From: an uncultured SAR86 cluster bacterium
GTDB lineage: Bacteria > Pseudomonadota > Gammaproteobacteria > Magnimaribacterales > D2472
Length of the DNA: 64,000 nucleotides
Assembly (NCBI GenBank): GCA_902622845.1
Contig: CACNRI010000004.1
Coordinates: forward strand, 1-64,000
Direction: 5' to 3'
Positions 32,135-43,056 of this stretch are shown piece by piece. Under the pieces are notes generated by a model that was not told where the DNA came from, did not search any database, and saw only the letters and a program-made list of their open reading frames with translations. Position 1 is the stretch's first letter; the number at the start of each line of letters is the position of its first letter. The position numbers were made by a program, and so were the translations under genes.

Positions 32135-33237
32135 TTATAGAATTTATTTTCGTTATTAATTCTAACAACTATAGCTATTAGACTCATCATTACAAGCAAA
32201 CTTGTGCCTCCGTAACTAATGAACGGAAGGGTTAGTCCCTTTGTAGGAAGCAGCCCAATATTAACTCCTATATTTAAGATTACTTGAAGTGATATTAAAA
32301 ATCCTATTCCAAAACAAAGGTAACCCTGGAATGGTCTAATTTTATTAAATGATTCAAAGGAAACTTTGAAAATACTAATTAATAAGAATACATAAATCAA
32401 AATTAGGCATACACCTCCTATTATTCCAAGCTCCTCAACTAATATTGCAAAGATAAAATCTGTATGTGCCTCGGGTAAAAAAAGATTCTTTTGAATGCTA
32501 TTCCCCAACCCTAAGCCAAACCATCCTCCTTGACCTAAGCTTATTAAGGATTGAGCTAGCTGCCAACCGCTATCTTGAATATCCTCAAAAGGATCAATAA
32601 AACTTAATAATCTTATCAATCTGTATGGTTCTAAAAATATTGCAACTGCTCCTAGTATTAAAAAAAGCGTTACCAAAATTAAAAATTGGTAAAAAGAAAT
32701 GCCAGCGAAGAAGAGTAAAACCATCACGATCAAGCAAAGTACGGCCGTAGATCCATAATCTGGTTGAATTAATATTAGAGAAGCAAAAAGAGTTAAAACG
32801 AAAAGAGGTCTTAAAAAACCAGATGTTGATGATATTTCTTCAAGCCTTCTTACGCAATATCCAGAAATATAAATAAGCATACAGAACTTGGCAACTTCAG
32901 ATGGCTGGATATTGATTGGTCCAAACCTTATCCATCTCATGCTTCCGTTGACCTCAGTACCAACTCCTGGAAAGAATAATGCGACTAGCAAGATAAGAGA
33001 TAGTATCAATAATAACCAATCAAATTTTCTTAAAAAATCTGATGGAATAAGGAGAAAAAAACAAAAAATAATAAAGCCAATTGAAATAAAAATGGCTTGC
33101 CTTGAAGCAAAGAAAAAAGGATTATCATAAATTGATTCAGCCCTCACCATACTCGAGGATAGAACCATAATTTCTCCAAAGATTAGTAAGAGGACAAAAG
33201 TAAAAAGAATTTGAAAATTATTGCTTTTAAGTTCCAC
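32131..33237 (-). CDS. ftsW: SEDS glycosyltransferase FtsW
   Basis: SEDS motifs (GSMRWIRFGPINIQPSEVAK...LPFISYGGTSLL). Confidence 0.96.
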   Translation of the reverse strand: MELKSNNFQILFTFVLLLIFGEIMVLSSSMVRAESIYDNPFFFASRQAIFISIGFIIFCFFLLIPSDFLRKFDWLLLILSLILLVALFFPGVGTEVNGSMRWIRFGPINIQPSEVAKFCMLIYISGYCVRRLEEISSTSGFLRPLFVLTLFASLILIQPDYGSTAVLCLIVMVLLFFAGISFYQFLILVTLFLILGAVAIFLEPYRLIRLLSFIDPFEDIQDSGWQLAQSLISLGQGGWFGLGLGNSIQKNLFLPEAHTDFIFAILVEELGIIGGVCLILIYVFLLISIFKVSFESFNKIRPFQGYLCFGIGFLISLQVILNIGVNIGLLPTKGLTLPFISYGGTSLLVMMSLIAIVVRINNENKFYK

Positions 33238-34261
33238 TCTTTTCCTCTATAAGTTTATTGAATGCCTTTCCCCTTTCTTCAAAATTAATATAGTCATCGC
33301 CGCTTGGATATCCTGGGGAAAAAAGAATATTTTTAATATTAGCTTTTTCGATCTCTCTGACTGCTAAACTTAGATTTTCACATGCAACTTTATTCTCATG
33401 TTTTACACATGAGAAGATTTCATTTGCATGTTTGCCGCATATTACTACTAATGATGGATTCGAAATCTCAACTTCTTTATATCCTTCTTTTTTAGGATTG
33501 CCTATTAGGATCAAAGCAAAGTCATTAAATATCTTACTTGCTTCACATAAAGCAAATTTTAAGGAATGAGAGTTAGTCGATTTAGAATCATTGATAGTAT
33601 TTTGATTTATTTTTTGAAACCTAAATGGAAGATCTTTTAGTTCTTTCTTTGGGGGGATAGATCCAGTAACAAATTTATATATAGTCTCAATATCATCATT
33701 CTGGATACTTTTTTTAGCCTCCAATATTCTTTTTTTTGATCGAACATAGTCTTCAATATTTTCGTGATAATCAAGATGATCACTATCTATATTGAGAAGT
33801 ATCCCATAATCAAGATCAATATTTGAAACCTTATCTAATTGAAAACTAGAAAGTTCAATAATTGAATATTTTTTTCCATTATTCAAAACATCTAGGACTG
33901 GCTTTCCAATATTTCCAACTAAGTTTGTAGAGTATTTTTCCTCTAATAGTTGCATTAAATGATAGCAGGTGGTGCTTTTTTTATTTGTACCGGTTATTCC
34001 TATTTTTATAGAGTCATCTTCATCGAAAAAGATATCCATGTCAGTAATAACTGTTGAATATTTCTTTAAATTTATAAACTTCTCTTTAGGCACTGAGGGA
34101 CTTACGTAGATATTTTTATAAAAACCATCCTCAATCTTTGAAGTAATTTTTAATGAATCACTATGCAAAGTGTCATATATTTCAAACTCTTCACCTTTGA
34201 TGTCAAGATATCTTTGAAATGACTTTCCAGTTACACCGAAGCCATATATCAAAGATGGCAT
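33227..34261 (-). CDS. murD: MurD-like UDP-MurNAc-L-Ala--D-Glu ligase, shortened
   Basis: dcw position, NIGKPVLD, NIDSDHLDYH, INDSKSTN; only 344 aa. Confidence 0.85.
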   Translation of the reverse strand: MPSLIYGFGVTGKSFQRYLDIKGEEFEIYDTLHSDSLKITSKIEDGFYKNIYVSPSVPKEKFINLKKYSTVITDMDIFFDEDDSIKIGITGTNKKSTTCYHLMQLLEEKYSTNLVGNIGKPVLDVLNNGKKYSIIELSSFQLDKVSNIDLDYGILLNIDSDHLDYHENIEDYVRSKKRILEAKKSIQNDDIETIYKFVTGSIPPKKELKDLPFRFQKINQNTINDSKSTNSHSLKFALCEASKIFNDFALILIGNPKKEGYKEVEISNPSLVVICGKHANEIFSCVKHENKVACENLSLAVREIEKANIKNILFSPGYPSGDDYINFEERGKAFNKLIEEKSGT

Positions 34262-34264
34262 AGA

Positions 34265-35350
34265 TTATCTTAATTTGAGTGTTGCCAGGGCAACTAAAAT
34301 TAGAACAAGAGTGATAATCCAGAATCTGACAATAATTTTTGGCTCTGGCCACCCTTTTAGCTCAAAGTGATGATGGATTGGCGCCATTAAAAAAACTCTT
34401 TTTTGTCTTAACCTGTAAGAAGTGACTTGAATCATGACACTTAGGGTTTCAGCTATGAAAACTCCTGCCATAATTGCATAAACTATTTCATGTCTCAAAA
34501 TTACAGCAAGGACTCCAAGAATTGCGCCAAGAGTGAGAGAACCAACATCTCCCATAAAAACTTCTGCTGGATATGAGTTGTACCATAAGAAGCCAATTCC
34601 GGAACCTATAAGCGCTCCGCAAAAAACAATTAGCTCACCTGCAATTTGAAGATGAGGTATAAATAAATATTCTGCTATTAACTGGTTACCCATTGCATAT
34701 GCTATTAATCCTAAGCCACCACCAATTAAAATAGTTGGCAATATTGCTAACCCATCAAGGCCATCTGTTAGATTTACTGCATTTGATGAGCCAACAATTA
34801 CTAATGAGCCAAACAAAATAAATGAAAGCATGCTCATTTCAAAGATCCAGTCTTTGTTAAAAAGGAGTATTAATGATATTTCTGCTGAATCTTCGGCAGA
34901 GAAGTATAAAAAGCTTACTGCGATAATTGAAACTATGGTTTGAGATAATAGTTTAACCCTTCCAGATATGCCTTTTGAGTCCTTATATTTAATTTTAAAG
35001 AAGTCATCAAGAAAACCTATGATGGTGAAACCTAATGTAATAAAAAGGCAAACCCAAATATATCTATTACCTAAATCTGCCCACAATAAAGTAGATATTA
35101 GCAATGAGGAAATTATTAGTAATCCTCCCATGGTTGGGGTACCAGACTTTTGTTTGTGGGAATCTGGACCTCTCTCCACTCCATATTGTTTAAATTGCAT
35201 TCTTTGAAGCCAGCTTATTAGCTTAGGGCCCAAAAGTATTGTCAGCAATAACGCTGTTATTGTTCCTCCAATTGTTCTTACAGTAAGATATCTGAGAACA
35301 TCGAAGCCAGGATCAAAATCTACAAGAATGGTGCCTAAATATTCAAACAT
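34265..35350 (-). CDS. mraY: MraY phospho-MurNAc-pentapeptide transferase
   Basis: KSGTPTMGGLL, NAVNLTDGLDGLA, APIHHHFELKGW. Confidence 0.98.
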   Translation of the reverse strand: MFEYLGTILVDFDPGFDVLRYLTVRTIGGTITALLLTILLGPKLISWLQRMQFKQYGVERGPDSHKQKSGTPTMGGLLIISSLLISTLLWADLGNRYIWVCLFITLGFTIIGFLDDFFKIKYKDSKGISGRVKLLSQTIVSIIAVSFLYFSAEDSAEISLILLFNKDWIFEMSMLSFILFGSLVIVGSSNAVNLTDGLDGLAILPTILIGGGLGLIAYAMGNQLIAEYLFIPHLQIAGELIVFCGALIGSGIGFLWYNSYPAEVFMGDVGSLTLGAILGVLAVILRHEIVYAIMAGVFIAETLSVMIQVTSYRLRQKRVFLMAPIHHHFELKGWPEPKIIVRFWIITLVLILVALATLKLR

Positions 35351-36681
35351 TAAATAAACCTCTCCATTCTCATTCCTCTAGATCCTTTAATTAAAACAAT
35401 ATCATTCTTTTTGACAAAGTTAGCAATAAATTCCTTGAGTTGCTCTTCATTATAAAAATTATAAGATTTTTTTTGAAATCCGCTGGATGCAAATTTTGAA
35501 AGCTCTCCAAAAGTTATAAGAATATCAATCTTGGAATTTTTTGCATAAGAGCCTATATCAACATGAAGTTTTTTTCTAAACCTTCCTAACTCAAACATAT
35601 CTCCGAAAACAAAAATCTTTCTGCCTGAAAATTCTGATAGTACATCTATACTTCTCTTGACTGATTCGGGGTTTGCATTATAAGTATCATCAATCAGTGT
35701 GGATTTATTTCTCCAGGAAAGGATTCTTTGTCTTGAAATAGAACTTGATATATTTTTTAGAGATTTAAGCATTTTTGAGTTACTCTCACCTAAGATATTA
35801 AGACATGTATGACATACCAAAATATTTTGAACGTTATGCTTTCCTAGGAGTGATGAAGAAATAGAAATAGCTTTAGATTTTTTATCTCCACTACAGCTCT
35901 TGATGATATCAAAAGTCATTACTTTTTTATCTTTTGAGATTTTCTCATTCTTTGCAATAAATTTTTTAGGGACAGGGATTACATTGATGCCTTTTGCCAT
36001 ATTTTTCCATCTAAAAAGATAGTTCTTATCATTTGGGACTATCAAAGTTCCTCCTTTACGGATATTTTTTATAAGCTCAGACTTAACTTTGAAAACACCT
36101 TCAATATTTATAAGTTTTTCTAGATGCGAGTTTCCGATATTTGTGATTATTCCTATATCAGGCTTAACTATCTTTGATAAATATTTAATATCTCCTTTTT
36201 TTGCTGCGCCAGCTTCTAAAACCATATATTTACAATCCTTTTTTGACGACATAATGCTAATCGGAAGGCCAATTTCGTTATTAAAATTTTTAATTGTAGT
36301 CGAGCACTTGGGGAGTGATTTTGAGATGATATTTGTTGTTGATGTTTTTCCATTACTCCCAGTAATTAATATTTTTTTTCCTTTAAAATCAGATGCAATC
36401 TCCGATGATATTTTTGAAAGTGCTTTCCTAACACTAGGAACATAGATGGCATTATTTTTATTAATATAAGATTTATCAGAGCATAAAACTGCAGTTGCTC
36501 CAGATGAGAAAGCTTTTTCGATAAATTTATTTCCATTGAAATTTTCTCCCTTCAAAGCAATAAAAAGTGAGTCTTTTTTGATGGTTCTAGTATCAATTGA
36601 AATATTTTTGAATTTAATATTTTTTTTTGCCTTTAAACCAAGATACTTTCTAATGTCGTTTGTGCTTGAAATGAATTTCAT
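35350..36681 (-). CDS. murF: MurF UDP-MurNAc-tripeptide--D-Ala-D-Ala ligase
   Basis: LITGSNGKTSTTNI, LLGKHNVQNIL; MKFISS start forms TAATG overlap with the preceding ORF. Confidence 0.95.
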   Translation of the reverse strand: MKFISSTNDIRKYLGLKAKKNIKFKNISIDTRTIKKDSLFIALKGENFNGNKFIEKAFSSGATAVLCSDKSYINKNNAIYVPSVRKALSKISSEIASDFKGKKILITGSNGKTSTTNIISKSLPKCSTTIKNFNNEIGLPISIMSSKKDCKYMVLEAGAAKKGDIKYLSKIVKPDIGIITNIGNSHLEKLINIEGVFKVKSELIKNIRKGGTLIVPNDKNYLFRWKNMAKGINVIPVPKKFIAKNEKISKDKKVMTFDIIKSCSGDKKSKAISISSSLLGKHNVQNILVCHTCLNILGESNSKMLKSLKNISSSISRQRILSWRNKSTLIDDTYNANPESVKRSIDVLSEFSGRKIFVFGDMFELGRFRKKLHVDIGSYAKNSKIDILITFGELSKFASSGFQKKSYNFYNEEQLKEFIANFVKKNDIVLIKGSRGMRMERFI

Positions 36682-37268
36682 TAAAATTTTCTTTCTTTTT
36701 TTGTGCAATTTCCTTTTGCCAAGATTTCTAACTTAGGATTCTTATTTTTGCCACCATCTTTACTTTTTAGCCAGACATCTCCAAAAATTCTCCCTTTACC
36801 TGTATACCAGTTGATAGAGTTTGAGATTCCATAATACTCGACACTATAATTATCAAAAAGTGGATGATCTTCTCCCAAAGTCATTGATGATATTACCTCT
36901 ATGCCATTTTCACTTATCTTTTTACTCCAATTCGCTTTAGGATTTACCCAAATTGGTGAAGGATCAAATGTATAATTGAGTTTAATAAGGTTATCGCTTT
37001 CATCAATTTCCCAATACTGAACAACCTGCAAAGATTCTTTTTGCCAATCGTCTTTGTCAAAATTTGTTTTTGCTTTATTGATAAGAAAAATAGACTGTTG
37101 CGTCTGAGTTGCCAAGTTTTTAAAAAAGTCTAAGCCTTCCGATATTACTGTTTTGGAAAGATCTCTATAGGTTACAGAAAATGATCCATCAAGCTCACAG
37201 ATTATCTCTTTTTTTTCAGAGAAAGAGAATGTTGAAAAAACTAACATTATAAGGGTGATATATTTCAT
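36681..37268 (-). CDS. Predicted secreted protein of unknown function inside the dcw operon
   Basis: 195 aa, N-terminal signal-like segment MKYITLIMLVFSTFSFSE; ATGA overlap with murE stop, TAATG overlap with murF start. Confidence 0.85.
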   Translation of the reverse strand: MKYITLIMLVFSTFSFSEKKEIICELDGSFSVTYRDLSKTVISEGLDFFKNLATQTQQSIFLINKAKTNFDKDDWQKESLQVVQYWEIDESDNLIKLNYTFDPSPIWVNPKANWSKKISENGIEVISSMTLGEDHPLFDNYSVEYYGISNSINWYTGKGRIFGDVWLKSKDGGKNKNPKLEILAKGNCTKKERKF

Positions 37269-38689
37269 AATATTTCCTCCACAACCCTTTGATCGTTAAA
37301 TGGTATCTTAGTTCCTTTTATTTCTTGGAATTCTTCATGCCCTTTCCCGAGAATCAATAAAATTTCATCTTCTTTTAAGGCATCTATACCATTTTTTATT
37401 GCTTTTTTCCTATCTGGTTCAACAATTAAGTTACTATACTCCTGATCTTTTCTAGAATCATCCAAAATTGACTGGAAACTTTCATTTCTACAATTGTCAG
37501 AAGTAAAAATGACTTTTCGTGAATTAGTGCATGAAAATTTCATGATTTTTCCTCTTTCAGAACTATCTCGCTCTCCTCCACATCCATAAACAATAATTAA
37601 ATCATGATAGATATTTGAGACTGAATTAACTATAGCTCTGATGCCCCCGTAATTATGAGCATAGTCAATTAAAATATTTTTATTGTTTTTAGATATTATC
37701 CTTGCCCTGCCAGAAGGCAGATCTATTGAGTTAATAAGCTCCTTATCAAAAAAAATATTTTTTTCTATTTGATCAAGACATGCTATCGCAAAAACTAAAT
37801 TATAAATGTTATGTTTTTGAAAAAATCTTACTTTTAAATCGATACATCTATCATTTGACATTAATCTAAAATTACAGCCATTTTTATTAGTTTTATCTAT
37901 CGAAAAAAAGTAATCTGCTTGTTTATTGGAGCAACTCACTATGCATTTTTCATATCCTGCTAATTCTTTATCTATGAGTGAAGCAGAAGTTTCACAGTCC
38001 CCATTTAAGATTATCTTATTGTGAGAAGAGAAATTTAATATCTTCAGTTTTGAGTCAATATAATTTTGAATATTTTTGTGAAAATCTAGATGATCTTGCT
38101 CAATATTCAAAATTGCTCTAGTTTCAGCATCTATTCCTATAAGTCTATTCTGATCTAGGCCGTGAGAAGAAGCTTCAATACAAACAAATAGCTCATCTTC
38201 ATATTTTTCTCTAGATATAAATTCAAAAAGTTCAAAAAGATTTGGAGTTGTGTTTCTTGTTTCCTTAAATCTTGTTTTACTTTCAAGTCCTAAGGTCCCT
38301 GCTAGGACAGCATCTTTATTGGTTTTTAAGAGAATTTGATAAGAAAAAAATGCAGTCGAAGTCTTTCCATTTGTCCCTGTAAAAACAAGAAACTTTAAGT
38401 TTTTTTCACGAATATTATAAAAATTAAGACATATTTCTTTTTGTCTCTCAAATAAATCTTCTACAAAAAAGCAAGGTATCTCATGTTGTTTAAAATAATC
38501 TTTTTTATTATGCAAGACACAGCTGGCTCCATTAGCAATAGCTTCGTCAATATAATCAAGTCCGTGAGATCTTAAACCTTGAAGAGCTATGAAACATTGT
38601 CCTTTCTCTATTAATCCTGAAGAGCTTGTCAATCCAGATATAAATATGTCTTCATTAATATTTATGTCTAGATCTCGTAGAACTTTCAT
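37265..38689 (-). CDS. murE: MurE UDP-MurNAc-tripeptide synthetase
   Basis: FTGTNGKTSTAFF, NTTPNLFELFE, DNCRNE (DNPR-motif variant). Confidence 0.95.
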   Translation of the reverse strand: MKVLRDLDININEDIFISGLTSSSGLIEKGQCFIALQGLRSHGLDYIDEAIANGASCVLHNKKDYFKQHEIPCFFVEDLFERQKEICLNFYNIREKNLKFLVFTGTNGKTSTAFFSYQILLKTNKDAVLAGTLGLESKTRFKETRNTTPNLFELFEFISREKYEDELFVCIEASSHGLDQNRLIGIDAETRAILNIEQDHLDFHKNIQNYIDSKLKILNFSSHNKIILNGDCETSASLIDKELAGYEKCIVSCSNKQADYFFSIDKTNKNGCNFRLMSNDRCIDLKVRFFQKHNIYNLVFAIACLDQIEKNIFFDKELINSIDLPSGRARIISKNNKNILIDYAHNYGGIRAIVNSVSNIYHDLIIVYGCGGERDSSERGKIMKFSCTNSRKVIFTSDNCRNESFQSILDDSRKDQEYSNLIVEPDRKKAIKNGIDALKEDEILLILGKGHEEFQEIKGTKIPFNDQRVVEEIL

Positions 38690-41455: not shown

Positions 41456-42574
41456 TTAATCTACTTGCTTTCTCATAAAAGTTGGCACATCGAGGAAATC
41501 AATTGCCTCTGCAGACGATGCACCAACTTGTTGAACTTCTTTAGTTGTGAGATCTTTATCCAACCCAACCGGTGAAAGCTTAATAGATGCTTTAGGTTTA
41601 TCTATAGAAAGCTTAGGAGATTTCTGATTTACCCCTGTTGCAACAATCGTAACCATAAGTTCATCTTTTAGAGATGGATCAATTACAAGTCCGTATATGC
41701 ATGTCGCATCATCAGCTGTAAACTCCTCAACAACCTCACTTACCTCAGTAAAATCTCCCATTGTTGGATCTTTTGCAGAAATATTTACTAAAACCCCTCT
41801 TGCATCCTTTAGATTAATATCTTCAAGAAGTTCACTTCCAACAGCTAATTCTGCTGCATCTCTTCCACGGTCTTTTGTATTAGATTTTCCAGTACCCATC
41901 ATTGCAATGCCCTTTTCTGACATAACAGTTTTAACATCAGCATAGTCCACGTTTATGAGACCTGGCTTCATAATAATGTCTGAGATCCCTTGGACAGCTC
42001 CCTTTAAAACATCATCTGCCTGCGCAAAAGCTTCAGGAATTGGTGTATTTGCTCCAAGAACGTCTATTAACTTCTGATTTGGTATTGTTATTAAGCTATC
42101 AACTTCTTCAACGAGAGCAGCAAGGCCTTTTTCAGCCGAACTCATTCTTGGCTTACCTTCAAACTTAAATGGTTTGGTAACAACAGCAACTGTTAAAGCA
42201 CCTAGTTCTTTTGCAATCGATGCAACTACTGGTGCAGCTCCTGTTCCAGTTCCACCACCCATGCCAGCAGTTATAAAAACCATATCTGAACCATGAAGTA
42301 ATTGTTCAATTGCTTCCCTGTCTCTCTCTGCAGCTTGTTTACCAACTTCAGGATTTGCTCCAGCTCCTAGACCTTTTGTCATGCCGCCTCCAAGCTTTAA
42401 AATAGTGGCGCCCTTAGCATTTTCCAAGGCTTGCGAATCAGTATTAGCGCATATAAATTCGACACCTTGTATCTTGTGATTCATCATATGGATCACTGCA
42501 TTGCCTCCGGCACCACCCACCCCAATAACTTTTATTTTTGCTTGATCAATATCATCTACAACTTCCCAATTCAT
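41456..42574 (-). CDS. ftsZ: Cell division GTPase FtsZ
   Basis: IKVIGVGGAGGNAVIHM, GGGTGTGAAPVVA, C-terminal peptide LDVPTFMRKQVD; AGGGGAG upstream of ATG 42574. Confidence 0.98.
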   Translation of the reverse strand: MNWEVVDDIDQAKIKVIGVGGAGGNAVIHMMNHKIQGVEFICANTDSQALENAKGATILKLGGGMTKGLGAGANPEVGKQAAERDREAIEQLLHGSDMVFITAGMGGGTGTGAAPVVASIAKELGALTVAVVTKPFKFEGKPRMSSAEKGLAALVEEVDSLITIPNQKLIDVLGANTPIPEAFAQADDVLKGAVQGISDIIMKPGLINVDYADVKTVMSEKGIAMMGTGKSNTKDRGRDAAELAVGSELLEDINLKDARGVLVNISAKDPTMGDFTEVSEVVEEFTADDATCIYGLVIDPSLKDELMVTIVATGVNQKSPKLSIDKPKASIKLSPVGLDKDLTTKEVQQVGASSAEAIDFLDVPTFMRKQVD

Positions 42575-42585
42575 TTTATCTCCCC

Positions 42586-43056
42586 TTAAAAACTCATATC
42601 CTTTATGGATTCTGGAAGAACAATATCTAGGATCTCTGTTGCAAGACTTCCCCCAGTTTGTCTTTGCTCCCAATTTTCTTGATTCCAAATTTCAAATTTA
42701 TTCCCCATTCCTATTAAACATATTCTGTTTGCGTCCTCTATTTGTGCATATTTTTTAAGATCAGCTGAAATTAAAACTTGCATTCTCCCATTTGGCTCAA
42801 AATCGCAAACGCTGGCATTACCTAAAATTGTCCATTGAAGATTTCTTACTATTGGATCCAGGCCCTGAAGAGAAGAAAGCTTTTTAGAAATTTGATTCCA
42901 CTCACTCCCTAAGTAGACTTTGAGTGATGGATATTGAGGATCTTTGGTAATTACAATCTGATTTTCGTTTGAATTAATAAAAGCATCTCTATATTTAGCA
43001 GGAAATGAGAATCTACTTTTTTTATCAATAGAAATATTATTAAAGCCGAACATCAT
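42586..43056 (-). CDS. mraZ: Transcriptional regulator MraZ
   Basis: MraZ/AbrB-like repeats, first gene of dcw cluster. Confidence 0.93.
   Translation of the reverse strand: MMFGFNNISIDKKSRFSFPAKYRDAFINSNENQIVITKDPQYPSLKVYLGSEWNQISKKLSSLQGLDPIVRNLQWTILGNASVCDFEPNGRMQVLISADLKKYAQIEDANRICLIGMGNKFEIWNQENWEQRQTGGSLATEILDIVLPESIKDMSF

Follow-up and report, generated by a model that had tools for sequence, protein, structure and literature searches.

The Neisseria competence gene dca is an extra gene of the dcw cluster and does not encode a wall enzyme. The gene content of dcw varies by lineage, and murE-murF is among the sub-clusters usually kept, as described for the Neisseriaceae (PMC9395523). 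Lineage-specific extra dcw genes are a known kind of event, and the open reading frame (ORF) considered here, from the SAR86 cluster, is likewise an extra gene in dcw; however, it is unrelated by family to the others, is restricted to SAR86 in the genomes sampled, and separates murE from murF. At the protein level, the closest described systems are the lipocalin-like periplasmic carriers, such as the YceI family (PF04264) and the bacterial lipocalins, which are beta-rich periplasmic proteins of near 190 aa with a signal peptide, and the beta-barrel lobes of TbpB.

The window, that is, the whole stretch of 64,000 nucleotides analysed, belongs to an uncultured SAR86 bacterium and contains a dcw operon transcribed in the order mraZ, ftsZ, rsmH, ftsL, ftsI, murE, ORF, murF, mraY, murD, ftsW, murG, murC, ddl, ftsQ, and ftsA, with genes named from Pfam for the proteins scanned and otherwise from sequence and operon order. 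An initial annotation had described a 195-aa ORF joined to murE by ATGA and to murF by TAATG; all of these details were right, and the strand is minus:

37265..38689, minus strand: murE (474 aa), upstream neighbour, assigned by Pfam Mur ligase domains and operon position
37276..37280, minus strand: GGAGG Shine-Dalgarno sequence of the ORF, within the 3' end of murE
37265..37268, minus strand: ATGA overlap of murE stop and ORF start
36681..37268, minus strand: gene for the 195-aa orphan, probably secreted protein, stop codon included, assigned by homologues and purifying selection
36679..36683, minus strand: TAATG, ORF stop and murF start
35350..36681, minus strand: murF (443 aa from the coupled ATG), downstream neighbour, assigned by Pfam Mur ligase domains and operon position

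The ORF initiates with ATG, 8 nt downstream of the GGAGG, and the plus-strand translation of the same span is riddled with stops. Within TAATG, the TAA of the ORF occupies 36681-36683 and the ATG of murF 36679-36681; this coupled ATG was taken instead of a longer TTG-started murF frame in the ORF list. The junction motifs are identical in all seven congeners with an intact murE-ORF-murF, the GGAG core and TAATG included, and the lineage of genome G005 has TGATG. Two side observations concern other genes of the operon. ftsZ (41456-43056, minus strand) is placed at the start of the cluster, flanked by mraZ and rsmH, and not at its usual position after ftsA; G005, G007, and G010 share this arrangement. 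At 344 aa, the murD product of the window (33227-34261, minus strand) is short, and its P-loop, GTNKKST, carries Lys in place of the Gly usual in MurD; G010 has Arg at the same position (GTNRKST). The window murD may be weakened or altered.

Homologues of the ORF occur in 72 of the 203 genomes of the order, SAR86, and dN/dS among congeners is 0.03-0.06, compared with 0.13-0.16 for murE and 0.08-0.15 for murF. Because of these homologues, this low dN/dS, and the junction motifs shared by seven congeners, the ORF is a genuine gene, far beyond chance, and the real, translationally coupled, and conserved protein of the initial annotation is borne out; it is neither confined to a single genome nor decaying. 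The family was absent from all 365 Gammaproteobacteria sampled outside the order, a class-wide sample of 369 genomes gave matches in two, both SAR86, and the records carrying the family bear SAR86 titles. A 70% identical copy lies on a nominal Opitutia MAG contig, L064 (NZKY01000112.1), which is probably mis-binned, since its dcw neighbours are near-identical to those of the SAR86 genome G005. Within SAR86, most genera of family f1 carry the gene, as do genus g14 of f2 and a single f4 genome. Most genus g9 genomes lack it, and so do family f3 and G010, the latter with its dcw operon complete; f3 yielded one match, in G086, which is weak (E 0.005) and spans stop codons. Almost all copies are intact, the exception being a broken one in G014. 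The family is thus restricted to SAR86 in the genomes sampled and is under strong constraint.

The genomic address of the family is another matter. In the genus of the window, murE-ORF-murF is found in seven genomes and ftsI-ORF-murF in G005. Among 65 named family loci, six adjoin murE and murF and two adjoin ftsI and murF, all eight coming from this genus or being near-identical to it. The other 57, outside the genus, have other neighbours at every one: hflX is the neighbour at 31 of the 65, glycoside-hydrolase-like and yeiH-like genes flank the ORF at 15, and the remainder adjoin a rhodanese, a PDZ protein, a psiE-like gene, or genes without an assigned identity. SAR86 genomes in which the ORF lies elsewhere or is absent have murE and murF adjacent or overlapping, which agrees with the earlier remark that the two are normally neighbours. 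Conservation of the insertion, proposed as a check, therefore extends to the genus of the window only. The six sequences of the genus group together in a single clade (support 98/99) in which G005 branches first, and the simplest history is that the ORF entered the operon once, in the common ancestor of the genus. G007 appears to have lost the ORF later, because a short 3' tail of murE meets murF directly via ATGA without it; the loss perhaps took place between the similar ATGAAAT starts of the ORF and murF. Since the copies of relatives adjoin unrelated genes, the position in dcw reflects a local rearrangement and does not argue for cell-wall building by the protein.

This bears on the proposal, drawn originally from the coupling, that the protein is a peptidoglycan or division factor, acting on or near new wall material in a genus that gains from its co-translation with murE and murF. 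Such a role would suit the ATGA and TAATG junctions with their good ribosome-binding site, the predicted export, and the strong constraint. Moreover, eight congeners keep the ORF ahead of murF, among them G005, which lacks murE; the coupling on both sides maintained in these eight counts against the account preferred below, as selection for co-expression with wall genes is possible. However, the chief argument for the proposal falls away, since adjacency to murE and murF is not conserved across the 57 loci elsewhere and the other SAR86 genera, where the two genes abut each other. G005 keeps the ORF without murE, G007 has no ORF yet retains murF, mraY, ftsI, ftsW, and murG, the ORF is wanting in most of g9, in f3, and in G010 despite a complete operon, and no peptidoglycan-binding or peptidoglycan-active domain was matched by Pfam in 36 members or by NCBIfam in the window protein. 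A wall-building role is therefore considered unlikely.

The features of the protein itself are as follows:

37218..37268, minus strand: signal-peptide-like N-terminus MKYITLIMLVFSTFSFS, codons 1-17, judged by eye from the sequence and family alignment
37197..37199, minus strand: codon of invariant Cys24, in the first predicted beta strand (66/66 in the alignment)
37050..37148, minus strand: low-confidence helical insert between strands 1 and 2, codons 41-73, from AlphaFold models
36705..36707, minus strand: codon of invariant Cys188 (alignment), in the last predicted beta strand, presumed disulfide partner of Cys24

Signal cleavage after S17 is suggested, and no lipobox was seen by eye, Ile preceding Cys24 in EIIC and Cys24 lying beyond the predicted cleavage site. 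Of the earlier statement that the protein is secreted, the signal-like N-terminus stands, as read by eye, and export is probable. Exactly two cysteines, 24 and 188, are present in 66/66 aligned mature homologues. Given that both are invariant and that DsbA-family proteins occur in all ten SAR86 genomes tested, the first and last strands are probably linked by a Cys24-Cys188 disulfide. The alignment also has W75, Q84, Y85, W86, W107, H135, Y146, N150, N153, and K158 invariant, and a C-terminal Phe in 64 of 66 homologues (Phe or Tyr in all 66). As in the initial annotation, no family was recognised, of unrelated function or otherwise: Pfam gave none over cut-off in 36 members, the window protein had no NCBIfam match near cut-off and no PHROGs family, and PDB sequences searched with the family profile gave no convincing match; no literature on this gene was found. 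Two candidates were rejected, namely DUF5361 (PF17318), at 16.8 bits against a gathering cut-off of 26.8 and over 14 residues only, and YceI, for which there was no profile match in the 36 members or in ten SAR86 genomes, with controls positive in 6 of 14 genomes.

The same eight strands and one helical insert are predicted in two AlphaFold models (mean pLDDT 81.5 and 80.1); pLDDT is near 90 in most strands and averages about 50-54 for residues 41-70 of the second model. An antiparallel beta-rich fold, barrel-like or a curved sheet, with a helical insert is therefore predicted. In several strands, the first and last included, a cysteine-bearing hydrophobic face is set against a highly charged one. 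Foldseek gave nothing at E<=0.001 against the PDB for both models or against viral models for the first, and matches to MHC and GFP were dismissed (TM-scores 0.11-0.18). Structure prediction, recommended at the outset, thus yielded a beta-rich model and no convincing structural relative. The best Foldseek match of the second model is TbpB (E 7e-3, probability 0.91, TM-score 0.29 of the query, rmsd 9.3). Its lobes share antiparallel barrel-like strands with the predicted protein, whereas TbpB is a 500-aa surface lipoprotein and the ORF product is 195 aa, lacks a lipobox, and has no sequence similarity to it; the likeness is at most one of predicted fold. The lipocalin-like carriers resemble the protein in size, signal-like N-terminus, beta-rich character, and inferred periplasmic location, although there is no YceI profile match and neither YceI nor lipocalins are among the best structural matches shown. 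By analogy, the protein may work like such a carrier; its roughly eight predicted strands may or may not close into the eight-stranded up-and-down barrel of lipocalins and other calycins.

The same models raise the question of whether the product might be a small outer-membrane beta-barrel instead of a soluble periplasmic protein. The long antiparallel predicted strands and the C-terminal Phe or Tyr throughout the family point in this direction, and OmpA and phage outer-membrane-barrel models are among the weak Foldseek matches. On the other hand, the predicted last strand stops at residue 190, five residues short of the C-terminal Phe and before the charged tail KERKF, placing the Phe outside a typical Bam signal strand, and the hydrophobic face bears both invariant cysteines. 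A membrane barrel is considered unlikely.

The account favoured as a whole, with a probability of roughly 55%, is that the ORF encodes a SAR86-specific, Sec-exported, Cys24-Cys188-bonded, beta-barrel-like periplasmic protein whose gene moved once into the dcw operon. The protein would leave the cytoplasm by the Sec route, be held together by its one disulfide, and most likely be soluble in the periplasm. A small hydrophobic or polar ligand may be bound, lipocalin-style, in a cavity lined by the invariant aromatic and polar residues; binding or carrying of a small molecule or lipid is a best guess by analogy, held with low confidence. At the base of the genus, the gene would have been moved by a chance rearrangement to directly upstream of murF, where it would be co-translated with murE and murF. 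The new site would confer growth-linked, steady expression, for which the ORF is proposed to have been kept there, without this turning the protein into a peptidoglycan enzyme or partner. Given the poor helical region in AlphaFold and the lack of a confident structural match, the fold and ligand are putative.

A further reading, which we hold to be a long shot, has a SAR86-specific periplasmic envelope factor brought into the dcw operon of one genus because of a real function in handling intermediates of the wall or the lipid carrier, possibly connected with the unusual absence of murC, murD, and murE from some members of that genus. Apart from any such reading, the G005 operon runs ftsI, ORF, murF, mraY, ftsW, murG, ddl, ftsQ, and ftsA, without murE, murD, or murC, and its ftsI-ORF-murF junction recurs in the independent contig L064; G007 has no murD, and of murE just the 3' tail. 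The dcw clusters on L043 (G005), L064, and L194 (G007) all lack murE and murD and retain murF, mraY, murG, ftsI, and ftsW, mpl being located elsewhere in the genome in these congeners. Mur-ligase profiles matched two proteins only in each of G005 and G007, one being MurF and the other 65-80% identical to the Mpl (muramyl-peptide ligase) of G006; Mpl is carried by most SAR86 genomes. Mpl joins tripeptide from recycling to UDP-MurNAc (PMC3060825), so that a salvage pathway could conceivably stand in for MurC, MurD, and MurE. Alternatively, the three genes may possibly have been relocated to the unassembled 18-20% of the genome, the G005 and G007 assemblies being only 80-82% complete.

As a separate observation on SAR86 wall genes, the Asp/Glu racemase family (PF01177, MurI) exceeded its cut-off in 0 of 71 SAR86 genomes, with weak matches in some, the majority of them in frames about 270 aa long, which suggests that MurI has diverged or that D-glutamate is supplied in another way.

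A decaying, selfish, or phage-derived insertion without cellular role, as might be imagined for an orphan family that is patchy in the order and found in several different genomic places, is highly improbable, being contradicted by the purifying selection, by the intactness of nearly all copies save that in G014, and by the lack of any relative in phage records or IMG/VR contigs and of a PHROGs family.

SAR86 bacteria abound in surface ocean waters, and many envelope proteins of the group are unnamed; to our knowledge, it is not readily cultured. Because the neighbours of the ORF change between genera, exact translational coupling in a conserved operon does not have to reflect a common function when it is seen in a single genome. 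The family is a fair candidate for structural work, since it is more constrained than MurE and MurF in the same operon and has no family match in the libraries searched.
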